DNA from: Ovis canadensis
Taxonomy: Eukaryota > Chordata > Mammalia > Artiodactyla > Bovidae
NCBI RefSeq assembly: GCF_042477335.2
Contig: NC_091245.1
Span: forward strand, 112,378,501-112,442,500
Direction: 5' to 3'
DNA length: 64,000 nt
In this document: positions 818 through 33,048 of the stretch, in pieces
Numbering within the stretch: position 1 is the first letter of the stretch
Layout: every line of letters begins with the position of its first letter
Program-made: the position numbers and the translations under genes
The notes under the pieces: generated by a model
The model's database searches: none
Told to the model about the DNA's origin: nothing
Seen by the model: the letters and a program-made list of their open reading frames with translations, nothing else

Positions 818-2514
818 TAAATTTAGAAAACTCAAGTAATTGGTAATGTAGGAATCTGAACTCATATCCACAATGGCCACCGAGCTCTAGTTTGGATGTT
901 TGAACCATAGTTATTCCATTCTGATTTTTTAAACGCATTTTTTTCTTAATGGTTAAAGCAGATGTACAATGCATGTTTAAAAGGCCACAAACAGGCTATT
1001 TTGGTTAGCCTAAAGCCAGAAAGACCCTACATACCTCAATATACAAAAATTTCTTTTATGATTTTGCCCTTTTGATTCTGAATCTTTCAATAGAAAGCAT
1101 TGATGATCAGAGTATCTGTCCCTTAATGCTGGGGTAGTTCAGCTGCCTGCCACAGGGTTAGATCATGTCCTCTATTTTAGACCTCCTTTCTATTTGTCTA
1201 GTTATCCATGTTAGGGGAAAACTAATCAGATATTGCAGACAGGCTCAGAGGTATGTTAATGGGGAAACATTTTATAGGCTATACATTTTATCAATCATAC
1301 TCAATTGTCTCATGAGCATTATACTTGTGCTTTCAGCAATAAATTTTAGCCAGCAGTATTACACATCATAGTGGTAATACTCTGTAAAACTTCATTAGAG
1401 AATTTTATTTCTATCATAACTACTGAGGGCAACAGTGTGGTTTAAAAGTAAAACAGTAACTTTCTTTTCTTTTTTTACATACTGATTCTATATATATATA
1501 ATTTTAGAAAACATACATTAATCTCTAGTAATTACAAAATCAGTTGTTGGCTGAGAGTAGGAGCTGGGGCTACGGGAAGCACAGGATTACACAGTGAATA
1601 TATTGGAGATGATAAATATGTTCATTGTTTTCATTGTGATGATGTCACAATTGTATGCATACGCCAAAAGTAAAATCTATTATATAGTTTTAATATGTGA
1701 AATTTATTGTATGTCATTTGAAAGTATTTTTAAATGTTTTAAATTGTCATAAAATACATATAACATCAATTTTAAAAAAGTCAGATAAGGAACAACCTTA
1801 ATTCCATCTGTGATATTAATTTCCCTTAACCATGTAACCTAACACATTCACAAATTCTGGGATTAGAATATAATTATCTTTGGAGGGTCATTATTCTATA
1901 TACAACTCAGTAAATTGTAGCTATTAATTAGTTCTTACTTGGAATTTTTTCTAGACTTCCATTATGTGACAACATATAGTTGTTGTTACTGAAATGACTG
2001 AAACAGTAACTTTCAGTGTTGATAGGGAGAAAAACATTTGGTAAACAATTCACTTAGATTTGTATGTCAGATCTTAAGGCCTGTCTGGGTCAGTTGCATA
2101 TCACTGCTGTTGCCTTCTCATCCTGGTATTAATATTGTTTGGGGACAGCAGTCCTTTCTACAGACCAGCCCAATGTAGTGGCCCTTCTTAAGTAGGTAAT
2201 ATAAATTTAAGAGTTAATTTCCTTCAGTTTCTTAGTGCATGATGTACTTAAGGCTACCTGATGTCATCTTTCATCTAGGTTGGAGACAATCCTTTAAACT
2301 ATGCTTCTTCCGGTATGCATAATCCCCTGATTATAGATCAGGGGGCATCTGATCTTCACCCCAAAATAGATTACAGTGATCAGTTTCAGAAACAAGCTTA
2401 GAATATTTTTTAAATAACTCAATTAATTAAGCTTTACAACAATGTAACATAGTAAAAATAGCTACTTGGGAAATGAGATTTAGACAATAAATATGGATCT
2501 CAATGAACAAAACT
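818..2514. other. unannotated intergenic sequence
   Basis: AT-rich DNA with stops in all frames. The largest ORF (1165-1371, plus) has no recognisable domain. No repeat, RNA gene or exon was recognised. Confidence 0.5.
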
Positions 2515-2521
2515 AGAATTT

Positions 2522-2746
2522 AACATGGGCTTCCCATGTGGCTCAGTGGTAAAGAACCCCCTGCCAAGCAGGAGACATGAGTTCAGTCCCTAGGTCGGGA
2601 AGATCCTTTGAAGAAGGAAATGGCATCCCATTCCAGTATTCTTGCCTGAAAATTCCCACTTACAGAGGAGCCTCGTGGGCTGCAGTCCATGGGGTCACAA
2701 AGAGCTGGACATGACTCAGTGATTAAACAGCATCAGTAGCAGCAGC
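2522..2746 (+). mobile_element. Bov-tA SINE
   Basis: tRNA-Glu-like head (GGGCTTCCCATGTGGCTCAG) fused to the BovA body, ending in a short (CAG)n tail. A 7-bp duplication AGAATTT (2515-2521 and 2747-2753) brackets it. Confidence 0.9.
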
Positions 2747-3059
2747 AGAATTTTATATTGAAGCACAATCATTTTTTTCTCTAAATTACCCTAATTTTTA
2801 CCAAACACAGCCAAGTTAATATTAGTTTGTTTGCAAAATAAGTCTGGTTATCTAATCACATAGACTTTGAAAAAATCAGCTGTGCTGAAACTTATAAGGA
2901 ATCTCACATTGAGCTTTTAAAAGCCTCTCAGATTGAACTTTTAAAAGGAGTGTCAAGGTCAGTCAAGCAACACCAATGGCTTGTAACAGATTCTGCCTGC
3001 AGTATCTATCAATTTGGGTGAATTCTTCTCTTCTCAAGGTCCTCAAAATATCTTGAGAT

Positions 3060-3091
3060 ATACACATAGACACACACACACACATATATAA
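3060..3091. repeat. short CA/TA-rich microsatellite
   Basis: Interrupted (CA)n followed by (TA)n. Confidence 0.7.
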
Positions 3092-3097
3092 TTGTAC

Positions 3098-3204
3098 TAT
3101 GTATAATCCCAGTTTGCATGATTTCAGTTCCCAACCAAGGATCAAAGCTGGGCCAGAGCAGTGATGGCACTGAATCCTAACCACTAGGCCACCAGGGAAC
3201 TCCT
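3098..3204 (-). mobile_element. CHR-2-type tRNA SINE fragment
   Basis: The right end reads CTAACCACTAGGCCACCAGG then GAACTCC, the complement of the CHR tRNA-derived head. Confidence 0.75.
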
Positions 3205-3499
3205 TTGAGATTCTTGAACTTGTTAAGAGGTGACCTTCCTTACTCATTGATAAGGCTTCTGGCTCCTGAGAGTTTCTAATTTCTGGAGGGATCACGTAGG
3301 GAGGAAAGAGAAACATTTCAATCCTATTTACAAAGTATAATTTACCAAGTTGCTATAAATCATAATCAGCTTAAGGGCAAATTTTCCTTTAAATCTGAAA
3401 TACAAAGATTAAGCCAGTAATATGTCAGACAAATGTCATACAAGTTATAATTATATTTTTTGGTTCATTCAATCCTATGTAATTAATTTTTGTTCTGCT

Positions 3500-7351: not shown

Positions 7352-7357
7352 CTACTC

Positions 7358-7783
7358 TGTAGGGAACTAGGTTTAAAGAAGGTTGAGAAGTGCTTGCAAA
7401 CGAGACTCTCAACCAGGGCTGAACATTCTTGCAAACGAGATGTTCAGCTAAGAATCCTGTTTGTTCCCATGGGAAAAGAACATTGCTTGCACACAAGGAT
7501 GTTTCTCTGATTCCTCAAAAGGAACAGACCTTGGGACAAAATGGATTCTAAGTTGATAAGGAAGTTCCCCAAAACAAAGTCTTAGCTGCAGTAAATAAGC
7601 CAACGTAAAGGTTATCTCGCCCTGTGCCTGCGGACTGTATAGTCTCTGAATCATAGTGCTTGGCAGCTTGCCCTGTAGGTTGTTGTGCAAGGGATATAAA
7701 ATAAAGCAGCTGGAAGAAGCAAGTGTTAAAATATAAAGATTTAAACCACTCTGCAGTGTAGGTGTTTCATTCCGTCGCCGGCA
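7358..7783 (+). mobile_element. class II ERV LTR (426 bp)
   Basis: Begins TGTAGGGAACTAGG and ends CCGGCA; AC and the primer-binding site follow. A TATA-like ATATAAAA (7694-7701) overlaps a poly(A) signal AATAAA (7700-7705), a compact layout seen in class II LTRs with short R. U5 would then be about 7725-7783. The U3 start contains two tandem hairpins (7381-7448). I cannot name the Repbase family. Confidence 0.85.
7381..7448 (+). repeat. two tandem U3 hairpins sharing one loop motif
   Basis: GGTTGAGA/TCTCAACC (7381-7388, 7407-7414) and GCTGAACAT/ATGTTCAGC (7418-7426, 7440-7448) are perfect stems of 8 and 9 bp. Both enclose CTTGCAAACGAGA (7393-7405 and 7428-7440). A regulatory role is only a guess. 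Confidence 0.85.
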
Positions 7784-7785
7784 AC

Positions 7786-7861
7786 TGGCACCCAACGTGG
7801 GGCTTGAACCCACGACCCTGGGATTAAGAGTCCCATGCTCTACCGACTGAGCTAGCCGGGC
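7786..7861 (-). tRNA. complete tRNA-Lys(CTT) copy captured from the retroviral primer
   Basis: Read on the minus strand it is a 73-nt tRNA-Lys with CUU anticodon followed by CCA (TGG at 7786-7788). A box TAGCTCAGTCGG and B box GTTCAAGCC are present. It differs from the usual tRNA-Lys-CTT at two sites that look like CpG decay (GTTCAAG for GTTCGAG; GGGTG for GGGCG at the 3' end). The acceptor stem still pairs, with G-U pairs. Vertebrate tRNA genes do not encode CCA, and its TGG/ACCC end is exactly the LTR primer-binding site, so this is a reverse-transcribed primer, not an ordinary tRNA gene. Pol III transcription is possible but unproven; the first TTTT downstream is near 7728-7731. Confidence 0.93.
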
Positions 7862-7971
7862 ACCTAGTTCCCTACACTGGGCAGAACATCTCGTTTGCAA
7901 GAATGTTCAGCCCTGGTTGAGAGTCTCATTTGCAAGCACTTCTCAACCTTCTTTAAACCTAGTTCCCTACA
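7862..7971 (-). mobile_element. two inverted copies of the U3 terminus
   Basis: 7862-7876 is the exact reverse complement of 7358-7372. 7877-7971 aligns without gaps to the reverse complement of 7358-7452, with one mismatch across the last 88 nt and three in the first seven. Both copies stop exactly at the U3 5' terminus. Confidence 0.92.
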
Positions 7972-7977
7972 CTACTC

Positions 7978-10709: not shown

Positions 10710-11399
10710 GAATGTACCCAAAGTTTTTATTTATTTATTTTATATTTTATTTTTTCTTTTTTCCCAGTGATATTACTTATTTTTATTTTGCTATAAACCA
10801 TACAGAACATTTTTTATAAATTTGTCATTGTTTTGTTTATTATATATATAGAAACCTAACTCCTAACTTACTACCACATAAATGCTACTGTGCAGAATTT
10901 TAATGGCAAGCAATAAACAGCATTGCTAATAAAATAGGTGATATTTTAACAATTGTGTACATTTATGTTAGTTAAACAATTGTTAGCTTGATTTCACACA
11001 TATATTTGATTTTAAGTATTATGAAGGTCTTTTTTTTCACTTTTTGTTTTTTTTTTAATTTTAATTTTTACTTTACTTTATTTTACAGTACTGTATTGGT
11101 TTTGCCATACATTGACATGAATCCACCACAAGTGTACATGAGTTCCCAAACATGAATCCCCCTCCCACCTCCCACCCCATATCATCTCTCTGGATCATCC
11201 CAGTGCACCAGCCCCAAGCATCCTGTATCCTGCATCGAACATAGACTGGCGATTCGTTTCTTACATGATAGTTTGCATGTTTCAATGCCATTCTCCCAAA
11301 TCATCCCACCCTCTCCCTCTCCCTCAGAGTCCAAAAGTCTGCTCTACACATCTGTGTCTCTTTTGCTATCTCGCATACAGGGTCATCATTACTATCTTT

Positions 11400-14300
11400 C
11401 TAAATTCCATATATATGTGTTAGTATACTGTATTGGTGTTTTTCTATCTGGCTTACTTCACTCTGTATAATCAGCTCCAGTTTCATCCATCTCATTAGAA
11501 CTGATTCAAATGTATTCTTTTTAATGGCTGAGTAATACTCCATTGTGTATATGTGCCACAGCTTTCTTATCCATTCATCTGCTGATGGACATCTAGGTTG
11601 TTTCCATGTCCTGGCTATTATAAACAGTGCTGCCATGAACATTGGGGTACACGTGTCTCTTTCCATTCTGGTTTCCTCAGTGTGTATGCCCAGCAGTGGG
11701 ATTGCTGGGTCATAAGGCAGTTCTATTTGCAATTTTTTAAGGAATCTCCACACTGTTCTCCATAGTGGCTGTACTAGTTTGCATTCCCACCAACAGTGTA
11801 AGAGGGTTCCCTTTTCTCCACACCCTCTCCAGCATTTATTGCTTGTAGCCTTTTGGATCACAGCCATTCTGACTGGTGTGAAGTGGTACATCATTGTGGT
11901 CTTGATTTGCATTTCTCTGATAACGAGTGATGTTGAGCATCTTTTCATGTGTTTGTCAGCCATCCGTATGTCTTCTTTGGAGAAATGTCTATTTAGTTCT
12001 TTGGCCCATTTTTTGATTGGGTCTTTTATTTTTCTGGAATTGAGCTGCAGGAGTTGCTTGTGTATTTTTGAGATTAGTTGTTTGTCAGTTGCTTCATTTG
12101 CTATTATTTTCTCCCATTCAGAAGGCTGTCTTTTCACCTTGCTTATATTTTCCTTTGTTGTGCAGAAGTTTTAAATTTTAATTAGATCCCATTTGTTTAT
12201 TTTTGCTTTTATTTCCAGAATTCTGGGAGGTGGATCATAGAGGATCCTGCTGTGATTTATGTCGGAGAATGTTTTGCCTATATTCTCCTCTAGGAGTTTT
12301 ATAGTTTCTGGTCTTACTTTTAGATCTTTAATCCATTTTGAGTTTATTTTTGTGTGTGGTGTTAGAAAGTGATCTAGTTTCATTCTTTTACAAGTGGTTG
12401 ACCAGTGTTCTCAGCACCACTTGTTAAAGAGATTGTCTTTTCTCCACTGCATATTCTTGCCTCCTTTGTCAAAGATAAGGTGTCCATAGGTGTGTAGATT
12501 TATCTCTGGGCTTTCTATTTTGTTCCATTGAGCTACATTTCTGTCTTTGTGCAAGTACCATACTGTCTTGATGACTGTGGCTTTATAGTAGAGCCTGAAG
12601 TCACGCAGGTTGATTCCTTCAGTTCCATTCTTCTTTCTCAAGATTGCTTTGCTTATTCGAGGTTTTTTGTAGTTCCATACAAATTGTGAAATTATTTGTT
12701 CTAGCTCTGTGAAAAATACCGCTGGTAGCTTGATAGGGATTGCATTGAATCTGTAGATTGCTTCGGGTAGTATACTCATTTTCACTATATTGATTCTTCA
12801 GATTAATGAACATGGTATATTTCTCCATCTATTAGTGTCCTCTTTGATTTGTTTCACCAGTGTTTGTAGTTTTCTATATATAGGTCTTTAGTTTCTTTAG
12901 GTAGATATATTCCTAAGTATTTTATTCTTTTCATTGCAATGGTGAATGGAATGTTTCCTTAATTTCTTTTTCTACTTTCTCATTATTAGTGTATAGGAAT
13001 GCAAGGGATTTCTGTGTGTTGATTTTATATCCTGCAACTTTACTATATTCATTGATTAGCTCTAGTAATTTTCTGGTGGAGTCTTTAGGGTTTTCTATGT
13101 AGAGGATCATGTCATCTGCAAACAGCAAGAGTTTTACTTCTTCGTTTCCAATTTGGATTCCTTTTATTTCTTTTTCTGCTCTGATTGCTGTGGCCAAAAC
13201 TTCCAGAACTATGTTGAATAGTAGTGGTGAAAGTGGGCACCCTTGTCTTGTTCCTGACTTTAGGGGAAATGCTTTCCATTTTTCACCATTGAGGATAATG
13301 TTTGCTATGGGTTTGTCATATATAGCTTTTATTGTTTTGAGGCATGTTCCTTCTATTCCTGCTTTCTGGAGAGTTTTTATCATACATGGATGTTGAATTT
13401 TGTCAAAGGCCTTCTCTGTGTCTATTTGCATTTATTTTTCAATTTGTTAATGTGGTGAATTACATTGATTGATTTGCGGATATTGAAGAATCCTTGCATC
13501 CCTGGGATAAAGCCCACTTGGTCATTGTGTATGATCTTTTTGTGTTGTTGGATTCTGATTGCTAGAATTTTATTGAGGATTTTTGCATCTATGTTCATCA
13601 GTGATATTGGCCTGTAGTTTTCTTTTTTTTGTGACATCTTTGTCAGGTTTTGGTATTAGGGTGATGGTGGGCTCATAGAATGAGTTTAGAAGTTTACCTT
13701 CCTCTGAAACTTTCTGGAAGAGTTTGAGTAGGATAGGTGTTAGCTCTTCTCGAAATTTTTGGTAGAATTCAGCTGTGAAGCCGTCTGGACCTGGGCTTTT
13801 GTTTGCTGGAAGATTTCTGATTACAGTTTCAATTTCCATGCTTGTGATGGGTCTGTTAAGATTTTCTATTTCTTCCTGGTTCAGTTTTGGAAAGTTGTAC
13901 TTTTCTAAGAATTTGTCCATTTCTTCCACATTGTCCATTTAATTGGCATATGATTGCTGATAGTAGTCTCTTATGATCTTTTGTATTTCTGTGTTGTCTG
14001 TTGTGATCTCTCCGTTTTCATTTCTAATTTTGTTGATTTGATTCTTCTTCCTTTGTTTCTTGATGAGTCTGGCTAATGGTTTGTCAATTTTATTTATCTT
14101 CTCAAAGAACCAGCTTTTGGCTTTGTTGATTTTTGCTATGGTCTCTTTTGATTCTTTTGCATTTATTTCTGCCCTAATTTTTAAGATTTTCTTTCCTTCT
14201 ACTAGCTCTCGGGTTCTTCATTTCTTCCTTTTCTAGTTGCTTTAGGTGTAGAGTTAGGTTATTTATTTGACTTTTTTCTTGTTTCTTGAGGTATGCCTGT

Positions 14301-15202
14301 ATTGCTATGAACTTTCCTCTTAGCACTGTTTTTATAGTTTCCCACAGGTTTTGGGTCATTGTGTTTTCATTTTCATTTGCTTCTATGCATATTTTGATTT
14401 CTCTTTTGATTTCTTTTGTGATTTTTTGGTTATTCAGAAGCGTGTTGTTCAGCCTCCATATGTCGGAATTTTTAATAGTTTTTCTCCTGTAATTGAGATC
14501 TAATCTTACTGCATTGTGGTTAGAAAAGATGCTTGGCACGATTTAGATTTTTTTGAATTTATCATGGTTAGATTTATGGCCCAGGATGTGATCTGTCCTG
14601 GAGAAGGTTCTGTGAGCACTTGAGAAAAAGGTGAACTTCATTGTTTTGGGGTGAAATGTCCTATAGATATCAATTAGGTCTAACTGGTCTATTGTATCAT
14701 TTAAATTTTGTGTTTCTTTGTTAATTTTCTGTTTAGTTGATCTGTTCATAGGTGTGAGTGGGGTATTAAAGTCTGTCACTATTATTGTGTTATTGTTAAT
14801 TTCCTCTTTCATACTTGTTAGCATTTGTCTTACATATTGTGGGGCTCCTATATTGGGTGCATATGTATTTATAATTGTTATATCTTCTTCTTGGATTGAT
14901 CCTTTGATCATTATGTAGTGGCCTTCTTTGTCTCTTTTCACAGGCTTTGTCTTAAAGTCTATTTTATTGGATAAGAGTATTGCCACTCTTGCTTCCTTTT
15001 GGTCTCTATTTGCGTGAAATATCTTTTTCCAGCCCTTCACTTTCAGTCTGTATGTGTCCCTTGTTTTGAGGTGGGTCTCTTGTCGGCAGCATATATAAGG
15101 GTCTTGTTTTTGTATCCATTCAGCCAGTCTTTGTCTTTTGGTCGGGGCATTCAACCCATTTACATTTAAGGTAATTATTGATAAGTATGATCCCATTGCC
15201 AT
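11400..15202 (-). pseudogene. L1 ORF2 (endonuclease-reverse transcriptase), broken
   Basis: Starts MAMGSYLSIITLNVNGLNAP, the L1 endonuclease start; RQETHL, INTYAPN and SRTDHIL follow. The usual GDFNTP reads TDFNTP. The frame then breaks into at least six open segments (14543-15202, 14174-14539, 13570-13938, 13422-13637, 12931-13431, 12411-12785, 12171-12383, 11400-12137). The RT signature [12 protein letters not shown] is in 12931-13431 and the C-terminal Cys/His knuckle [18 protein letters not shown] in 11400-12137. Length matches an L1 ORF2 of about 1270 codons. Not able to make a full protein. Confidence 0.92.
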
Positions 15203-15253
15203 TTACTTTATTGTCTTGGGTTCGGGTTTATACACCCTTTTTGTGTTTCCTGT

Positions 15254-16183
15254 CTAGAGAAGATCCTTTAGCATTTGTTGGAGAGCTGGTTTGGTGGTGT
15301 TGAATTCTCTCAGCTTTTGCTTGTCTGTAAAGCTTTTGATTTCTCCTTCATATTTGAATGAGATCCTTGCTGGGTACAGTAATCTGGGCTGTAGGTTATT
15401 TTCTTTCATCACTTTAAGTATGTCTTGCCATTCCCTCTTGGCCTGAAGAGTTTCTATTGAAAGATCTGCAGTTGTCCTTATGGGAATCCCCTTGTGTGTT
15501 ATTTGTTGTTTTTCCCTTGCTGCTTTTAATATTTGTCCTTTGTGTTTGGTCTTTGTTAATTTGATTAATACGTGTCTTGGGGTGTTTTGCCTTGGGTTTA
15601 TCCTATTTGGAACTCTCTGGGTTTCTTGGGTGATTATTTCCTTCCCCATTTTAGGGAAGTTTTCAATTATTATCTCCTCAAGGATTTTCTCATCGCCTTT
15701 CTTTTTGTCTTCTTCTTCTGGGACTCTTATAATTCGAATGTTGGAGTATATTCGAATGTTCATATTGTCCTGGAGGTCTCTGAGATTGTCATCATTTCTT
15801 TTAATTCTTTTTTCTTTTTTCCTCTCTGATTCATTTATTTCTACCATTCTATCTTCTATTTCACTAATCCTATCTTCTGCCTCCATTATTCTACCATTTG
15901 TTGCCTCCAGAGTGTTTCTGATCTCATTTATTGCATTATTCATTATATATTGACTCTTTTTTATTTCTTCTAGGTCTTTGTTAAACTTTTCTTGCATCTT
16001 CTCAATCCTTGTGTCCAGGCTATTTATCTGTGATTCTATTTTTATTTCAAGATTTTGGATCATTTTCACTATCAATATTTGAAATTCTTTATCAGGTAGA
16101 TTCCCTATATCTTCCTCTTTTGTTTGGTTTGGTGGGCATTTCTCCTGTTCCTTTACCTGCTGAATATTCCTCTGTCTCTTCCT
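15254..16183 (-). pseudogene. L1 ORF1, open frame but ATG lost
   Basis: The frame is open for 309 codons plus stop: basic N-terminus, coiled coil rich in E/K/I (IEKMQEKFNKDLEEIKK, EAEDRISEIEDRM), then the RNA-binding part (RIIRVPEEEDKK ... ILKAAREKQQITHKG ... RPARISFKYEGEIK-like end). At the start position, where copy B (27774) has ATG, this copy reads AGG (complement of 16181-16183). The next in-frame ATG is about 40 codons in. ORF1 proteins are trimeric RNA chaperones that coat L1 RNA. Confidence 0.85.
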
Positions 16184-18835
16184 CTTGGTTGTATTGCTGT
16201 GTTTGGGGTGGCCTTTCTATATTCTGGGAATTTGTGGTGTTCTCTTTATTATGGAGCTTCCTCACTGTGGGTGGGGTTGTATCAGTGGCTTGTCAAGGTT
16301 TCTTGGTTAGGGAGGCTTGTGTTGGAGTTCTAGTGGGTGGAGCTGGATTTCTTCTTTCTGGAGTGCAATGGAATGACCAGTAATGGGTTATGAGACATCA
16401 ATTGTTTGGAGTAACTTTGAGCCGCCTGTATATTGAAGCTCAGGGGTGTGTTCCTGTGTTGCTGGAGAATTAGCGTGGTATGTCTTGCTCTGGAACCTGT
16501 TGGCCCTTGGGTGGTGCTTGGTTTCAGTGTCGGTATGGAGGCGTTTGATGAGTTCCTATCGAATAATGTTCCCTGGATTCAGGAGTTACTCTGATATTCT
16601 CAGGATTTGGACTTAAGCCTCCTGCTTCTGGTTTTCAGTTTTATTTTTACAGTAGCCTCTAGACTTCTCCATCTATACAGCACCGATGATAAAACATCTA
16701 GGTTAAAGATGAAAGGTTTCTCCACATTGAGGGACACCCAGAGACGTTCACTGAGTTACATGGAGAAGAGAAGAGGGAGGGGGTAGTTAGAGGTGACTGG
16801 AATGAGATGAGGTGGGATCAAAAGAGGAGAGAGCAAGCTGGCCAGTAATCACTTCCTTATGTGCCCGCCACAGTCTGGACCGCTCAGAGGTATTCACGGA
16901 GTTATACAGGGAGGAGGAGAGAGAGGAAGTAGACAGAGGTGGCCAGGAGGATAAAAGAGGGAAATGAAAAGGAGAGAGACAGATCCAGCCAGTAACCAGT
17001 TCCCTGAGTGTTCTCCACCGTCTGGAACACACAGAGATTCACAGAGCTGGGTAGAGAAGAGAAGGGGGAGGGAAGAGACAGAGGCCACCTGGTAAAGAAA
17101 AAGGAGAGTCCAAAGGAGGAGAGAGTGGTCAAGGTAGTAATCTCGCTGTCAGGTAAAATTGGGTACTGAAGATTGGGTTTTTAAATGTACAAAATTGACA
17201 ACAAAAACCAAAAAGCAAAGATTAAAAATCTAGAATAGAGGTTGGATTTTCAAAAATACAATATTAAAGAAAAGAAGAAGGAAAAAAAAGAAAAAGAAAA
17301 AAGCCACAATAATTATTAAACAACAACAACAACAACCACACATAGACTATATATGCGTTTGCTTTAAAAAATAGGGTCTTTTTCTTTTGAAAAGTAATAG
17401 TAGGTTATAGAAATAAGAATTAAAGGAGAAATAGAGGACTTAACAATTTTAAACAGTTAGAAAAAAAAGAAGAAGAAAAAACAACCACACAACAACATCA
17501 ACAAAAAACAACAACAAAAAAGAAATAGTAAAGATATTTCTGGCCCTTTCTCTGGTGGTGTGGGCAGTGTGGGGTCACTTCCAAGGCGGTTCCCTCTGCT
17601 TAACTTCTGTTTGCTGGTCTCTTCAGTGTCTGATTTCCGTCCTGACACAGTGGGAGTGGTGGTGGACACTTTTTTTTTTTTTAAGCTCACTTGTTCAGTC
17701 ACGCTGTGGGGAGGGAGGGATGCTGCAAACAAATAACACTGTCGTGTGCATGCAGTGTCTCAGCCCCGCTGGGCCTGCCCCTGCTTGCAGCGCACAAACC
17801 GCTCAGGGTCTATGTTGCTCCGCTGGAAACCGTCTGAGGCCGGCCCTAGGCTGCATGCACCTCCCCAGTCTAAGCCGCTCAGGTTTGGCGCTCAGGTAGC
17901 CCTCAGAGGGACAGATTCGGTTGGGACTGCGTTTTGTGCCCTTCCCAGGTTCGAGTAGCTCAGGTGTTTGGCTAGCGCGGTCACTGAGACTTATCGCCTT
18001 TCCTGTCTCTGTTGCTCAGTTTTCTGGGTGTACCGCTGGCGCCCCTTGTGAGGCAGATGGTGACTGTCCAGCACCCCCAGAAGCCTTAGCAAAGAAGCCT
18101 GCTTGCAGTTTGGTAGGTAAAGTCTCCCCAGGGCTGCGATTGCCCCCTTCCAGCCCTTATGGCTCTGACTGCCTGTCCCCGGTGGGGGATGGTCTGCAGC
18201 TGGGTATTCCATTCCGTCCTTTGTTCTGTGCATGGTCCTGGGTGTCTTATGTTCAAGCTTTTCACATGGTAGCTATCCCACAGTCTGGTTTGCTAGCCCA
18301 AGTTAGTTCGTTCTGGTTAGTGCAGGGCGTTCCTGCCCAATTCTTAAAAAGCACTGCAGCCCGCGCCTCCTGCCCCTCCCTGCCCTGCCCCCACTTGCTA
18401 GTGGTGGATGCAGGCGTCTGCGCTGCTTTTCTGCTGGGGGAGTTACTGTTGGGCTTGTAATCTGTTTGTTTTAATTATTTATTTATTTTTCCTTCCTGTT
18501 ATGTTGCCCTCTGTGCTTCCAAGGCTCCCCACAGACTCAGCAGGGAGTGTTTCCTGGTGTTTGGCAACCTGTCTTCTTAAGATTCCCTTCCCGGGACAGG
18601 ATTCCCTTCCCTGGACAGAGCTCCCTCCCCACCTCCTTTGTCTCTTTTTTCATCTTTTATATTTTTTCCTACCTTTTTTTGAAGACAATGATCTGCTTTT
18701 CTGAGTGCCTGATGTCCTCTGCCAGCATTCAGAAGTTGTTTTGTGGAGTTTGCTCAGCGTTGAAATATTCTTTTGATGAATTTGTGAGGGAGAAAGTGGT
18801 CTTCCCGTCCTATTCCTCCGCCATCTTAGGACCGC
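16184..18835 (-). promoter_or_regulatory. L1 copy A 5' UTR
   Basis: About 2.65 kb between ORF1 and the L1 5' end, with GA-rich and GC-rich blocks. Holds the internal promoter in this family by analogy; no element was mapped. Confidence 0.6.
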
Positions 18836-24697: not shown

Positions 24698-27600
24698 GGG
24701 TGGTCCTAAGATGGTGGAGGAATAGGACAGGGAGACCACTTTCTCCCCCACAAATTCATTGAAAGAACATTTGAACGGTGAACATACTCCACAAAACAAC
24801 TTCTGAACACTGGCAGGGGACATTAGGCACCCAGAAAAGCAGCCCATCATCTTTGAAAGGCAATAGGACAAAATGTAAAAGATAAAAAGAGAGACAAAAG
24901 AGTTAGGTATGGAGATTCATCCCAGGAAGGGATTCTTAATAGAGGAGAAGTTTCCAAACACCAGGAAACCCTCTCATGGGCAGGTCTGGGGTAAGTTTTC
25001 GAATCTCAGAGGGCAACATAACAGAGAGGAAAAATAAATAAATAAAACCCACAGATTACGTGTCTAAAGGCAACTCCCAGCAAAGAGGTAGCCCAGATGC
25101 TTGCGTCTGCCACCAGCCAGTGGGGGCTAAATGGAGAAGAGTGGGCGGCATTGCTTAGGATAAGGACTGGGCCTGAATGCCCTGAAGGCATCTGACGGAG
25201 CTAATGTGGGATAGCAACCTAAACTGTAGGATAGCCGGGTGGGGGTGGGTGGGTGGGTAGGGGTGGCGGGGAAAGAGAGAGAGAACTATCCTGCGAAAAA
25301 CCCTAACCTGAGGCAATGCCAGGCCGCTCACAGAACAAAGGACTGAGTGAATACCAGAGGAGAGCTAGCTGGCTGCGGACCGGCCCATCCCCCACCGGAC
25401 ACAGGGGTCAGGCGGGCACCAGCCAGAGCAGGAAGGGGCAAACTCAGCCCCAGAGAGGGCATCCCCTACCAAACGGCACACAGGCTTCCAGTTTCTAACC
25501 AAAGACTTCCTGGGATTCTGGACGGTTGACATCCACTGGGAGGGCCACAGCCAGAGATCAGCTCCCCAGAAGAGACACATGGCACACTGGAGACCAGCAC
25601 TCCCGGAAACCCAAACGGCTGGGACCGGGGAGCTGATAAGACGCACTGCACCTGAGGAGAGTGTGCTCGCCACGCACCTGGTCGCCTGAGCTGCTTTAAC
25701 CAGGGAATGGCACAAAACGCAGGCCCAACTGAGTCTGCGCCATTGTGGAGTACCTGAGAACCTGAACCTGACTGGCTTAGACCTGAGAAGTGCACACAAT
25801 CCAGGGCCCGTTCCCTGCAGAGCAACCTGAAGCCTGAGCAGTGTAGACTGGGAAAGAACACACCCTATGAGCGGGGGCAAACCAATGTGGCCGAGAAACC
25901 GCAAGCACTCCCCACACACACCAGTGATATTTGTTTACAGTGTTCCTCCTTCCCCACAGCACGACTGAACAAGTGAGCCCAAACAAGAATCCACCTTTGC
26001 CCCCTTGTGTCAGGGTGGAAATTAGACACTGAAGACACCTGCAAACAGAAGAAGCCGAATAAACAGAGGGAACCTCTTTGGAAGTGACAGGTGCAACAGA
26101 TTAAAATCCCTGTAGTTAACACTGACTACATTGGAAGGGGCCTATAGATCTTGAGAAGTATAAGCTGGAACAAGGAACAATCTGAAACTGAACTGACCCC
26201 ACACTGCCTGCAACAGCATCAGAGAAATTCCTAGATATATTTTCACTATTATCATTTTTTTAATTAAAAAAAAAATTTAAGTCCTCTATTACTCCTTTAA
26301 TTTTCATTTTTATAACCTACTGCTAAGTTGCCTCAGTCGTGTCTGACTCTGTGCAGCCCACCAGGCTCCCCCATCCCTGGGAGTCTCCAGGCAAGAACAC
26401 TGGAGTGGGTTTCCATTTCTTTCTCCATGCATGAAAGTGAAAAGTGAAAAGTGAAAGTGAAGTCGCTCAGTCGTGCCTGACTCTTAGTGACCCCATGGAC
26501 TGTAGCCTACCAGGCTCCTTCATCCATGGGATTTTCCAGGCAAGAGTACTGGAGTGGGGTGCCACTGCTTTCTTCATATAACCTACTATTACCTTGCAAA
26601 AAAAAGACCCTATTTTTAAAGCAAACTTCATATATGTTTCTTATACTTTTGTGATTTTTAAAAAAATATTGTATTTTTGAGAGTCTAACCTCTACTCTAG
26701 ATTTTCAATCTTTGCTTTATAGTATTTGTTATCAATTTTGTACATTTAAGAATCCCATCTTCAGTACCCATTTTTACTTAGGAGTGTGATTACTGGCTTG
26801 ATTACTTTCTCCCCCTTTGACTCTCCTTTTTCTCCCCCAGGTTACCTCTATCTCCTCCCTCCCCCTTCTCTTCTCAACCCAACTCTGAATCTCTGCAGGT
26901 GTTCTGGGCTGCAGAGAACACTTAGGGAACAGAGGACTGACTAGATCTATCTCTCTCCTTTTGATTCCCCCCTTTGCTCCTCCTCCTCACCTCTATCTCC
27001 TTCATCCCTCTTCTCTTCTCTATGTAACTCCATGAACCTCTCTGAGGGTTCCAGACTGTGGAGCTCACATAGGGAGTTGTTTACTGGCTATATTGCTCTC
27101 TCCCTTTTTGATTCCCCCTCTTCTCCTCCTGGTCACCTCTATTGCCCACCTCCCTCTTCCCTTCTCCATGTATCTCTGTGAACCTCTCTGGGTGTCCCTC
27201 ACTGTGGAGAATCTTTTCACAATTAACCTAGAAGTTTTATTATCAGGGCTATATGGATAGAGAAGTCTTGAGGCTACTATAAGAATAAGACTGAAAACCA
27301 GAGGCAGGAGGCTTAAGCCCAAAACCTGAGAACACCGGAGAACTCTTGACTCCAGGGAACATTAATCAACAAGAGCTCATCCAAAAGCCTCCATACCTAC
27401 ACTGAAACCAAACACCACCCAAGAGCCAATAAGTCCCAGAGCAAGACATACCACGCAAATTCTCCAGCAATGCAGGAGAATTTATAGCCCTGAGCTATAT
27501 ATACATATAGCCCTGAGCTTCAATATACAGGCTGCCCAAAGTCATACCAAACCCACAGACATCTCAAAACTCACTACTGGACACTTTACTGCACTCCAGA

Positions 27601-27773
27601 GAGAAGAAATCCAGCTCCATTCAGCATAACACCAATGCAAGCTTCCCTAACCAGGAAACCTTGACAACACCACTCGTCCAACCTCACCCACAGGGAAGAA
27701 CCTCCATAATAAAGAGGAACCACAAACTGCCAGAATACAGAAAGGCCACCCCAAACACAGAAATCTAAGCAAG
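24698..27773 (+). promoter_or_regulatory. L1 copy B 5' UTR
   Basis: Contains a G-quadruplex-type tract at 25236-25272 (five or more runs of 3-5 G) and the Bov-A2 at 26322-26576. Promoter function is inferred from the L1 family only. Confidence 0.6.
26311..26587 (-). mobile_element. Bov-A2 SINE with target duplication
   Basis: Two BovA monomers in minus orientation joined by a (GTGAAAA)-like linker (26322-26576); TATAACCTACT flanks (26311-26321, 26577-26587). Confidence 0.92.
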
Positions 27774-28690
27774 ATGAAAAGGCAGAGAAATACTCAGCAG
27801 GTAAAGGAACATGGTAAATGCCCACCAAACCAAACAAAAGAGGAAGAGATAGGGAGTCTACCTTATTCTATCAGAATAATGATAATAAAAATGATCCAAA
27901 ATCTTGAAAACAAAATGCAGTTACAGATAAGTAGCCTGGAGACAAGGATTGAGAAGATGCAAGGAATGTTTAACAAGGATGTAGAAGAAATAAAAAAGTC
28001 AATCCATAATGAACAATGAAATAAAAAACACTCTGGAAGGAACCAACAGTAGAATAACAGAGGCAGAAGATAGGACAAGTGAGGTAGAAGATAGAATGGT
28101 AGAAATAAATGAAACAGAGCGGGAAAAAGAAAAAAGAATTAAAAGAAATAAGGACAACCTTAGGGACCTCTGGGACAATGTGAAACACCCCAATATTTGA
28201 ATCATAGGAGTCCCAAGAGAAGAAGACAAAAAGAAAGGCCACAAGAAAATACTCGAGGAGATAATAGTTGAAAACTTCCCTAAAATGGGGAAGGAAATAG
28301 TCACACACGTCCAAGAAACCCAGAGAGTCATAAAAAGGATAAATCCAAGGTGAAACACCCCAAGACACATATTAATCAAATTAACAAAGACCAAACCCAA
28401 AGAACAAATATTAAAAGCAGCAAGGGAAAAACAACAAATAACACACAAGGGGATTCCCATAAGGATAACAGCTGATCATTCAAAAGAAACTCTTCAGGTC
28501 AGAAGGGAATGACAGGACATTCTTAAAGTGATGAAAGGGAAAAACCTGCAGCCCAGATTACTGTACCCAGCAAGGATCTCATTCAGATATGAAGGAGAAA
28601 TCAAAAGCTTTACAGTCAAGCAAAAGCTGAGAGAATTCAGGACCACCAAACCAGCTCTCCAACAAATGCTAAAGGTCTTCTCTAGACAGG
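27774..28690 (+). pseudogene. L1 ORF1 of copy B, broken
   Basis: ATG present (MKRQRNTQQVKEHGKCPPNQ), coiled-coil start follows, but a stop occurs after 81 codons (28019). A second open segment (28009-28200) ends at TGA where copy A is open; the C-terminal block YPARISFRYEGEIKSF lies in 28528-28690. Frameshifted and non-functional. Confidence 0.88.
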
Positions 28691-28754
28691 AAACACAGAA
28701 AGGGTGTATAAACTCAAACCCAAAACAAAAAAGTAAGTGGCAACAAGACCATAT

Positions 28755-31700
28755 TTATCAATAATTACCTTAAATGTAAATGGGTTGAATGCCCCAACCA
28801 AAAGATAAACACTGGCTGAATGGATACAAAAACAAGACCCCTATATATGCTGTCTACAGGAGACCCACCTCAAAACAAGGGACAAATACAGACTGAAAGT
28901 GAGGGGCTGGAAGAAGATATTTCACGCAAACAGAGATCAAAAGAATGTAGGAGTAGCAATACTCATATCAGATAAAATAGACTTTGAAACAAAGGCTGTG
29001 AAAAGAGACAAAGAAGGCCACTACATAATGATCAAAGGATCAATCCAAGAAGATACAACAATTATAAATATATATGCACCCAACATAAGAACAATGCAAT
29101 ATGTAAGGCAAATGCTAACAAGTATGAAAGGGGAGATTAAAAATAACACAATAATAGTGGGAGAGTTAATACCCCACTCACACCTATGGATAGATCAACT
29201 AAACAGGAAATTAACAAGGAAACACAAACTTTAAATGACACAATGGACCAGCTAGACCTAATTGATATTTATAGGACACTTCACTCCAAAACAATGAATT
29301 TCACCTTTTCCTGAAGTACACATGGAACCTTCTCCAGGATAGATCACATCTTGGTCCATAAATCTAGCCTTGGTAAATTAAAAAAAATTGAAATCATTCC
29401 AAGCATCTTTTCTAACCACAATGCAGTAAGATTAGATCTCAATTACAGGAGAAAAAAATATTAAAAATTCCAACATATGGAGGCTAAACAACACGCTTCT
29501 GAATAACCAACAAATCATAGAAGAAATCAAAAAAGAAATCAAAATATGCATAGAAACTAATGAAAATGAAAACACAATGACCCAAAACCTATGGGACACT
29601 GTAAAAGCAGTGCTAAGGGGAGGGTTCATAGCAATAGAGGCTTACCTCAAGTAGCAAGAAAAAAGTCAAATAAATAACCTAACTCTACACCTAAAGCAAC
29701 TAGAAAAGGAAGAAATGAAGAACCCAAGGGTTAGTAGAAGGAAAGAAATCTTAAAAAATTAGGGCAGAAATAAATGCAAAAGAAACAGAAGAGACCATGG
29801 CAAAAATCAAGAAAGCCAAAAGCTGGTTCTTTGAGAAGATAAATAAAATTGACAGAGCGTTAGCCAGACTCATCAAGAAACAAAGGGAGAAGAATCAAAT
29901 CAACAAAATTAGAAATGAAAATGGAGAAATCACAACAGACAACACAGAAATACAAAAGATCATAAGAGACTACTATCAGCAACTATATGCCAATAAAATG
30001 GGCAACATGGAAGAAATGGACAAATTCTTAGAAAAGTACTGCTTTCCAAAACTGAACCAGGAAGAAATAGAAAATCTTAACAGACCCATCACAAGCATGG
30101 AAATTGAAACTGTAATCAGAAATTTTCCTGCAAACAAAAGCCCAGGACTGGAAGCCTTCACAGCTGAATTCTACCAAAAATTTCGAGAAGAGCTAACACC
30201 TATCCTCCTCAAACTGTTCCAGAAAATTGCAGAGGAAGGTAAACTTCCAAACTCATTCTATGAGCCCACCATCACCCTAATACCAAAACCTGACAAAGAT
30301 GCCACAAAAAAAGAAAACTACACGCCAATGTCACTGATGAACATAGATGCAAAAATCCTTAACAAAATTCTAGCAATCAGAATCCAACAACACAATAAAA
30401 AGATCATACACAATGACCAAGTGGGCTTTATCCCAGGGATGCAAGGATTCTTCAATATCCACAAATCAACCAATGTAATACACCACATTAACAAATTAAA
30501 AAATAAAAGCCATATGATTATCTCAATAGATGCACAAAAAGCCTTTGACAAAATTCAACATCCATTTATGATAAAAACTCTCCAGAAAGCAGGAATAGAA
30601 GGAACATACCTCAACATAATAAAAGCTATATATGACAAACCCATAGCAAACATTATCCTCAATGGTGAAAAATGGAAAGCATTTCCCCTAAAGTCAGGAA
30701 AAGGCAAGGGTGCCCACTTTCACCGCTACTATTCAACATAGTTCTGGAAGTTTTGGCCACAGCAATCAGAGCAGAAAAAGAAATAAAAGGAATCCAAGTT
30801 GGAAAAGAAGAAGTCAATCTCTCACTGTTTGCAGATGACATGATCCTCTACATAGAAAACCCTAAAGACTCCACCAGAAAATTACTAGAGCTAATCAATG
30901 AATATAGTAAAGTTGCAGGATATAAAATCAATACACAGAAATGCCTTGCATTCCTATACACTAATAATGAGAAAATAGAGAGAAATTAAGGAAACAATTC
31001 CATTCACCATTGCAACGAAAAGAATGAAATACTTAGGAATATATCTACCTAAAGAAACTAAAGACCTATATATAGAAAACTACAAACACTGATGAAAGAA
31101 ATCAAAGAGGACACTAATAGATGGAGAAATAGACCATGTTCATGGATCAGAAGAATCAATATAGTGAAAATGAGTAAACTACCCAAAGCAATCTATAGAT
31201 TCAATGCAATCCCGATCAAGCTACCAACGGTTTTTTTCAGAGAACTAGAACAAATAATTTCACAGTTTGTATGGAAATACAAAAAACCTCGAATAAGCAA
31301 AGCAATCTTGAGAAAGAAGAATGGAACTGAAGGAATCAACCTGCGTGACTTCAGGCTTTACTACAAAGCCACAGTCATCAAGACAGTATGGTACTGGCAC
31401 AAAGACAGAAATGTAGATCAATGGGACAAAATAGAAAGGCCAGAGATAAATCCATGCACCTATGGACACCTTATCTTCGACAAAAGAGGCAAGAATATAC
31501 AATGAAGAAAAGGCAATCTCTTTAACAAGTGGTGCTGGGTAACTAGTCAACCACTTGTAAAGAATGAAACCAGAACGCTTTCTAACACCATACACAAAAA
31601 GAAACTCAAAATGTATTAAAGATCTAAATATAAGACCAGAAACTAGAAAACTCCTAGAGGAAAACATAGGCAAAACACTCTCTGACATAAATCAAAGCAG

Positions 31701-32546
31701 AATCCTCTATGACCTACCTCCCAGTGTATTGGAAATAAAAGCAAAAATAAACAAATGGGATCTAACTAAAATTAAAAGCTTTTGCACAACAAAGGAGACT
31801 ATAAGCAAAGTGAAAAGACAGCCTTCAGAATGGGAGAAAATAATAGCAAATGAAGTATTTGACGAAGAATTAATCTCAAGAATATACAAGGAACTCCTGC
31901 AGCTCAATTCCAGAAAAATAAAAGACCCAATCAAAAAATGGGCCAAAGAACTAAATAGACATTTCTCCAAAGAAGACATAGAGATGGTTAACAAACACAT
32001 GAAAAGATGCTCAACATCACTCATTATCAGAGAAATGTAAATCAAAACCACAAAGAGGTACCATATCATGCTGGTCAGAATGGCTGCTATCCAAAAGTCT
32101 ACAGGCAATAAATGCTGGAGAGGGTGTGGAGAAAAGGGAACCCTCTTACACTGTTGGTGGGAATGCAAACTAGTACAGCCACTATGGAGAACAGTGTGGA
32201 GATTCCTTAAAAAAACTGGAAATAGAACTGCCATATGACCCAGGAATCCCATTGCTGGGCATACACACTGAGGAAACCAGAATTGAAAGAGACACATGTA
32301 CCCCAATGTTCATTGCAGCACTGTTTATAATAGCCAGGACATGGAAGCAACCTAGATGTCCATCAGCAGACGAATGGATAAGAAAGCTGTGGTACATATA
32401 CACAATGGAGTATTACTCAGCCATTAAAAAGAATACATTTGAATCAGCTCTAATGAGGTGGATGAAACTGGAGCCTATTATAAGGAGTGAAGTAAGCCAG
32501 AAAGAAAAACACCAATACAGTATACTAAGGAATATATATGGAATTT
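28755..32546 (+). pseudogene. L1 ORF2 of copy B, broken
   Basis: No ATG at the expected start. Endonuclease segment 28899-29234 loses the GDFNTP block (reads GELIPH after a frameshift). The largest open segment, 29797-30741 (314 codons), covers the N-terminal RT part with [26 protein letters not shown] is in 30672-30989; later segments 31092-31505, 31564-32040 and 32252-32546 reach the C-terminus. Confidence 0.92.
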
Positions 32547-33048
32547 AGAAAGATGGTAATGATAACCCTGTGTGCAAGATGACAAAAGAGACACAGATGT
32601 ATAGAACAGTCTTTTGAACTCTGTGGGAGAGGGTGAGGGTGGGATGATCTGGGAGAATGGCATTGAAAGATGTATAATATCATATGTGAAATGAATTGCC
32701 AGTCCAGGTTCGATGCATGAAACAGGATGCTCAGGGCTGGTGAACTGGGATGACCCTGAGGGATGGGATAGGGAGGTAGGTAGGAGGGGAGTTCAGGATG
32801 GGGAACACATGTACACCCATGGCTGATTCATGTCAATGCATGGCAAAAACCACCACAATATTGTAAAGAAATGAGCCTCCAACTAAAATAAATAAATTTT
32901 TTAAAAAAGAAAAAAATGTAATGGCCTATATGGTGAAAGAATCTAAAAAAGAGTGGATATATGTGTATGTTTAACTGTTTCACTTTGTTATACATCTGAA
33001 ACTAACACAACATTGTAAATCAGCTATACTCTAATCAAAAAGTGAAAA

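Follow-up and report, generated by a model that had tools for sequence, protein, structure and literature searches.

An ERVK-like element of Ovis canadensis that appears to have integrated through two U3 ends with a complete primer tRNA

How could a retroviral long terminal repeat (LTR) come to be joined to a copy of an entire primer tRNA and to an inverted piece of U3, all inside one short target-site duplication? This question is raised by a locus in the genome of Ovis canadensis (assembly GCF_042477335.2, contig NC_091245.1, positions 112,378,501 to 112,442,500 of the forward strand), a stretch of 64,000 nucleotides that was analyzed as a whole and is hereafter designated the window. Positions without a contig are those of the window.

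Anatomy of the element and its primer tRNA

The window element is an insert of 614 bp (7358–7971) bracketed by a perfect 6-bp duplication, CTACTC, and its LTR has the termini TG...CA (Table 1). Both outer ends of the insert are U3, whereas an ordinary provirus or solo LTR is bounded by U3 and U5. Moreover, past the primer-binding site (PBS), the tRNA stands where a provirus would have its leader, and a solo LTR would consist of the LTR alone. The plus-strand order U3-R-U5-PBS-tRNA is contiguous, as expected for a by-product of strong-stop synthesis. The parts described in the initial annotation (LTR of 426 bp, AC, the complement of a 76-nt tRNA, inverted U3, and the CTACTC pair) were thus all recovered by direct reading and with ARAGORN and Rfam.

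Table 1 Features of the window element and of related elements in the host genome
Feature	Location	Strand	Basis or target-site duplication
Target-site duplication, left copy CTACTC	7352-7357	.	read directly
Complete LTR, 426 bp, TGTAGGG...CCGGCA, single head unit, ERVK-like	7358-7783	+	read directly and genome search
U3 head, two predicted hairpins; counterpart of the tandem unit in many family LTRs	7358-7452	+	
Spacer AC, 2 bp, U5 to PBS	7784-7785	+	read directly
PBS, 18 nt, tRNA-Lys(CTT)	7786-7803	+	
tRNA-Lys(CTT) 1-76 including CCA, complete; tRNA sense on minus strand	7786-7861	-	ARAGORN, Rfam
Inverted U3, contiguous 110 nt, from the beginning of an LTR carrying 2 or more head units	7862-7971	-	
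Inverted U3 part: first 15 nt of unit 2	7862-7876	-	
Inverted U3 part: unit 1	7877-7971	-	
Target-site duplication, right copy CTACTC	7972-7977	.	read directly
L059, LTR, tRNA-Lys(CTT) 76 to 15, inverted LTR	C18:41687000-41693000, about 2126-3237		
L060, inverted-LTR element, two outward U3 ends	C6:129496077-129498670		exact 6-bp duplication ATGTTT
L064, 1017 bp, two outward U3 ends	C6:107415516-107416532		no clear duplication
L065, palindrome, U3 head only, 80 bp	C1		exact 5-bp duplication
L066, palindrome, U3 head only, 175 bp	C2		duplication, 5 of 6 bp matching
L067, palindrome, U3 head only	C8		exact 6-bp duplication
L068, palindrome, U3 head only, 80 bp	C2		exact 5-bp duplication
L069, palindrome, U3 head only, 80 bp	C5		no clear duplication
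L070, palindrome, U3 head only	C16		no clear duplication
L072, palindrome, U3 head only, 80 bp	C13		exact 5-bp duplication

The two U3 copies of the insert are nearly identical. Positions 1–88 of U3 agree with the inverted copy at 87 of 88 bases, the sole difference being a CpG-type C>T change, and U3 1–15 agrees with its second inverted copy at 15 of 15; the 91-nt inverted arm has an E value of 3e-40 within the window, far above chance. At the tRNA/U3 junction, there is at most one matching base. Fold prediction for the U3 head gave hairpins at U3 24–57 and 61–91 (z −4.57), and none of 200 shuffles was as good. The window also holds another inverted pair (11082–17265 and 26665–32867; 6.2 kb each, 88% identical), the members of which may both derive from a long interspersed repeat.

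ARAGORN assigned the tRNA as tRNA-Lys with the anticodon CTT, and the Rfam tRNA match (7789–7861) scored 63 bits with an E value of 2.6e-11. The copy begins at TGG (corresponding to CCA), where the primer adjoins U5, and ends at tRNA nucleotide 1. In comparison with the mature tRNA-Lys(CTT)+CCA, 74 of the 76 bases agree, and the differences, at 57 and 72, are both of the CpG type. The CCA side runs into the PBS and LTR and the other side into U3, unlike a free-standing tRNA gene or retropseudogene. Judged by its sequence, the tRNA segment represents, in DNA form, the mature primer tRNA-Lys(CTT) over its entire length; the presence of CCA, the continuity with the PBS, and the end at nucleotide 1 uphold the earlier proposal of an origin from the mature primer. 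Copying proceeds as far as the 5′ end when the tRNA is unmodified, and the m1A58 modification normally halts synthesis after 18 nt, according to a 2026 review (PMC13191261). The base facing A58 in the window copy is the one expected for A, so that A58 was presumably either unmethylated or passed without error.

Uniqueness, target site, and parent LTR family

The genome searched was a single assembly of the host (2.97 Gb, 42 contigs). When it was searched with the chimera 7775–7890, very common words being skipped by the search, an end-to-end match was obtained at the window only among the 39 candidates, all of which were scored; the other 38 were partial tRNA-Lys(CTT)-like matches. A pattern starting on the CCA side and running past A58 (at most 2 mismatches; control, 0 matches) was found in the host genome at two places, the window and one of different structure, which carries undecayed letters at both 57 and 72. 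A fixed repeat family with the tRNA was rejected on the basis of the one full match and the structurally different second place, as the initial annotation had also held, and within the assembly, to the extent covered by these searches, the existence of such a tRNA-bearing subfamily is practically inconceivable.

From the 38 partial matches, 24 distinct places were inspected (27 loci, L030–L056, three being repeats), and the window LTR was beside the tRNA-Lys sequence at none of these 24 places; a tRNA pseudogene pasted beside an LTR was rejected on this ground. One of the loci, L039, has a tRNA copy between inverted arms of a sequence unlike the window LTR. Six others (L033, L038, L040, L044, L045, and L047) are tRNA-Lys(CTT)-like pieces with a common acceptor-side flank of the GCAAC type (ACAAC in L045), and they perhaps form a small retropseudogene family carrying the trailer of the gene. 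The abundance of such pieces (38 partial matches besides the window) would favor a stepwise genomic assembly, in which an LTR remnant was later joined by a tRNA retropseudogene and by a piece of LTR in inverted orientation. This course of events is nevertheless very improbable, because a single perfect 6-bp duplication surrounds everything, the tRNA is joined to the LTR as a primer is to U5 and PBS, with CCA kept and the end at nucleotide 1, the right end is the exact U3 terminus, and the inner junctions have no direct repeats of 12 nt or longer except the U3 heads themselves.

The target site was searched for in its unoccupied form by joining both host flanks through a single CTACTC, and five candidates were scored. 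A site on C17 aligned at 116 of 153 bases through the target, with one CTATTC opposite CTACTC, and a site on C13 aligned at 82 of 116, with TTATTT opposite CTACTC and an adjoining 1-base gap; both lack the duplication and are old diverged paralogues, not orthologues. A candidate on C14 matched the right flank only, and the remaining two were the two halves of the window itself. An empty-site pattern gave 0 matches in bacterial and archaeal genomes, and a U3-head pattern gave 0 in viral contigs, both of which are uninformative. Since each paralogous site has a single equivalent of the hexamer, CTACTC as a pre-existing repeat was rejected. Together with the duplication around the whole insert and the TG...CA termini, these two sites support the view, put forward earlier, that one integrase-type event inserted the whole. 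The structure is known from one assembly, which leaves room for an assembly artefact, but the perfect duplication, the unoccupied paralogous sites, and the CpG-type decay point to an old real insertion and make an artefact extremely improbable. On these sequence features, the window element appears to have integrated via two U3 ends, carrying a complete primer tRNA.

The parent LTR family is represented by 408 candidates in the host genome, of which the 40 scored comprise the window and 39 others with 95–98% identity. Among the 28 family loci analyzed (L001–L008 and L009–L028), including the window copy, a PBS was present in 17 of the 27 others, which are not all independent, since L002 and L003 seem to be copies produced by duplication of a single locus, and the aberrant elements L060 and L064 contribute their normal-looking ends as L017 and L027. 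An ordinary leader follows the PBS in 16 of the 17, as had been expected of the family proviruses, the exception (L008) being one end of L060. The spacer between U5 and PBS is TC in all 17, in contrast to AC in the window. TCGA adjoins the PBS in 11 of the 17 and is complementary to tRNA 58–55. In this respect, it resembles the primer over-extension sequence that adjoins the PBS in other retroviruses, as described in PMC13191261.

Many family LTRs (e.g., L002, L010, L027, and L028) contain at least two tandem copies of a 95-bp head unit, TGTAGGG...TGCCCAG, and the number of units, estimated by spacing, ranges from one to about seven among the matches listed. It differs even between the LTRs of one provirus, with three versus one in L002/L013 and one versus two in L004/L019, which were paired by strand, distance, and matching flanks; among the matches listed, one of five provirus-like clusters has four versus five units and the other four have equal numbers. 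The inverted 110 nt of the window aligns with L002 without a break at 99% identity. In the initial annotation, two separate inverted U3 pieces (1–15 and about 1–95) had been distinguished and ascribed to a growing end that switched template twice. The unbroken alignment and the tandem units in the family led us to reject two separate pieces in favor of one contiguous stretch, for which a single strand switch suffices, given a tandem-headed U3. The left LTR contains a single unit, in contrast to two or more in the inverted piece. Hence, either a different molecule served as the source of the inverted piece, or the unit number changed by loss or gain during copying.

The TG...CA LTR, the 6-bp duplication, and the tRNA-Lys PBS are those of class II elements, and the window element is without a coding region. 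By its LTR ends, duplication, and PBS, the family is classed as ERVK-like (class II, betaretrovirus-like). Among eight ordinary solo LTRs of the family, five have an exact 6-bp duplication, two an exact 5-bp duplication, and one an unclear one; their ends were placed by hand, and two provirus 3′ LTRs among the ten loci were left out.

Other elements with two U3 ends or a copied tRNA

A U3-head pattern (at most 1 mismatch; controls, 0 and 1 matches) matched the host genome at 633 positions, 291 on the plus and 342 on the minus strand. The first 100 of the 633 fall into 54 clusters when grouped within 12 kb, and heads are present on both strands in 4 of the 54, a fraction that represents one pattern in part of one genome and misses elements with decayed ends. 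In all four clusters, the heads face outward: one is the window, and the others are palindromes of 80, 80, and 175 bp that consist of U3 only. A pattern for the fold-back junction (at most 3 mismatches) was matched at eight places, that is, the three known palindromes, four more (on C5, C8, C13, and C16), and one ordinary head. The seven palindromes are counted by their structure, not by the number of matches, since the reversed control also gave 4 matches.

Two further elements, L060 and L064, came from the 40 scored family LTRs. Thus, nine family elements besides the window have two outward U3 ends, seven of them being the palindromes of 68–175 bp (Table 1). The two U3 ends claimed for the window product thereby recur elsewhere, and the claim of a single aberrant integration holds for the window locus but not in the sense of an isolated case. 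Duplications flank 7 of the 10 elements, the window included, and resemble those of the solo LTRs, but none is clear in the other three (L064, L069, and L070). L069 is flanked by an LTR end on one side and, as judged by eye, apparently by internal provirus sequence on the other. Collectively, it may be concluded that the window element is an aberrant reverse-transcription product that belongs to a recurrent class with two U3 ends and is not a one-off.

Normal plus-strand strong-stop DNA ends at the 18-nt PBS. The arms of L060 have in common the LTR, the spacer, and exactly this 18-nt PBS, the left LTR having one head unit and the right LTR two; between the arms lies 1.6 kb, of which about 0.8 kb corresponds to internal sequence oriented like the right-hand LTR. 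In L064, the order is U3 1–38, a stretch of 47 bases, inverted leader, PBS, and an LTR with three units. As for the palindromes, strands that stopped at U3 57, the end of the first hairpin, would be predicted to yield a product of 57+23 = 80 bp. L065, L068, and L069 show 0 differences from this prediction over 80 bp and L072 shows 2, and L066 shows 0 differences from the 175 bp predicted with one extra unit. The palindromes are probably not miniature inverted-repeat transposable elements (MITEs) or other DNA transposons, as their sequence is that of the family U3 head and their duplications are like those of its solo LTRs.

The tRNA of the window has a partial counterpart in L059. Its left LTR (about 375 bp) is interrupted by a later SINE-like insertion, its tRNA-Lys copy runs from 76 to 15 with 61 of 62 bases agreeing with the tRNA, and its inverted LTR spans the stretch between PBS base 4 and the end of U3, the arms agreeing at 342 of 374 aligned bases. 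The window LTR gave no match at this locus, the LTR of L059 being another sequence. Near 1907, the target recurs in tandem without an insert and with a single TTAAGT, and the insert has TTAAGT on both sides; since the second base of the left LTR has been lost or changed, the duplication is of 5 or 6 bp. These observations bear on the idea that the 5′ phosphate of the primer tRNA, while the tRNA was still on the minus strand, became ligated to a U3 fragment of the plus strand, the RNA being later copied or repaired to DNA. Such ligation would also account for the exact boundary at tRNA nucleotide 1 in the window, but it leaves unexplained both L059, in which the tRNA copy ends at nucleotide 15, and the relatives without tRNA (L060, L064, and the palindromes), and we consider it improbable.

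With a tRNA-Lys(TTT) pattern (at most 3 mismatches; control, 0 matches), five places were found in the host genome, three of which (L073–L075, extended as L083–L085) have a common LTR-like sequence, belonging to another family, and a PBS; at the other two, no LTR-like structure was seen beside the tRNA. In L083, L084, and L085 (on C2, C15, and C5), tRNA-Lys(TTT) was copied to about 44, 33, and 38, respectively, as judged by eye. At its far end, the shared sequence has a CA in each, the tRNA end joins host DNA, and no duplication was found when looked for at the three loci. At one locus, the target seems to lack about 14 bp in comparison with a repeat. A tRNA-Pro read-through pattern (at most 3 mismatches; control, 0 matches) gave five matches including L082, four of which are without TGG at the place of CCA. 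A37, a modified base according to PMC13191261, lies near the tRNA endpoints of L083–L085.

Possible origin of the insert and its significance

We regard the window insert as probably a by-product of ERVK-like reverse transcription that arose through read-through of the tRNA, extension on another plus strand, and the joining of two U3 ends to the host by integrase. A plus strand begun at the polypurine tract would copy U3, R, and U5 and continue onto the primer tRNA still on the minus strand, past A58 to the tRNA 5′ end. Its 3′ end would then be extended on a second plus strand, which had started at U3 nucleotide 1 and grown to nucleotide 110 of a tandem-headed U3, or, alternatively, on its own beginning, and copying to the 5′ end of the second strand would create the second U3 terminus. 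In the least certain step, the two strands would prime each other 3′ to 3′, yielding a duplex with a U3 end on either side, and integrase would pair both U3 ends and insert the molecule. Other stopping points on this route (U3 38, U3 57, PBS 18, and tRNA 15) may account for the palindromes, the inverted-LTR elements, and L059; with tRNA 1 included, these are the points encountered so far.

Alternatively, the plus strand may have primed itself by folding back on its own U3 5′ end, the resulting hairpin being later opened and copied. This possibility deserves attention, doubtful as we think it, since the U3 head has strong predicted hairpins and the short palindromes fit a snap-back at the first hairpin exactly. 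Moreover, U3 24–57 matches its own reverse complement at only 20 of 34 bases; pairing is thus better within the hairpin than between two strands, and two annealed short strands would have a mismatched middle. A hairpin, however, has one U3 duplex end and requires an extra opening step, and the window and L060 both have one head unit on one side and two on the other, although the unit number can change in copying. The 3′-to-3′ joining of two strands is favored because it gives a duplex with two finished U3 ends and needs no hairpin opening; the sequences predicted by the two-strand joining and the single-strand fold-back are the same.

Solo LTRs and MITEs are likewise short, gene-free, and flanked by duplications, and solo LTRs have the ends U3...U5. 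Elements of the window type, in contrast, end in U3...U3, and they consist of retroviral U3 with no DNA-transposon sequence, unlike MITEs, with which the short palindromes share terminal inverted repeats. In HIV-1, over-extension into the primer tRNA also carries the plus strand beyond the 18-nt PBS, but what PMC13191261 describes is a reverse-transcription product, whereas the window element is integrated and inherited and has the complete tRNA and a second U3 end. For ASLV and HIV-1, PMC5041404 describes aberrant integrations in which integrase made one end and the other was joined by the host. Such defective products in host DNA are similar in kind, and L083–L085 resemble this type, but the window element is flanked by a duplication and its ends are both of the integrase type. 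In a Jurkat clone, a reverse-transcribed tRNA-Gly is located beside an HIV provirus (PMC12220202, in the part available), again a CCA-bearing tRNA copied to DNA adjoining an LTR. That tRNA, however, is not the primer; 67 of the 72 nt of the tRNA gene were copied, they lie at the outer 3′ LTR/host junction, where they replace 67 host nt, and the available part of that report mentions no inverted U3. The ERVK[2-1-LTR] of cattle (PMC10924933) is also a ruminant ERVK with a PBS for tRNA-Lys CTT/TTT and 6-bp duplications; it comprises, however, ordinary mobile elements. In the titles and abstract openings of the literature surveyed, we found neither a complete primer-tRNA copy in an endogenous retrovirus nor germline elements with two U3 ends.

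There is, in our estimate, an even chance that a more general process underlies these elements. Certain retroviruses may routinely produce integrable mini-DNAs from nascent plus strands joined at their 3′ ends, and the hairpin in the U3 head may predispose the window family to do so, in which case germline insertions with two U3 ends would make up several percent of the family total (4 of 54 clusters, among the matches listed). Read-through of the tRNA past A58 would be one entrance to this process, by which full-length primer tRNA would be deposited in the genome as DNA, and the products would constitute an integrase-driven, gene-free class without the two-LTR definition. If read correctly, the window holds a germline fossil of plus-strand synthesis that missed the A58 stop and copied the entire primer tRNA. 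The window element and its relatives suggest that, in an animal germline, integrase has repeatedly joined two U3 ends, with inserts down to about 80 bp. Three questions are thereby opened to genome comparison: how frequently synthesis misses the tRNA stop in different families of retroviruses, whether germline insertion requires any U5 end, and whether short palindromes of retroviral origin have escaped notice because U3-R-U5 is the form that repeat annotation looks for.
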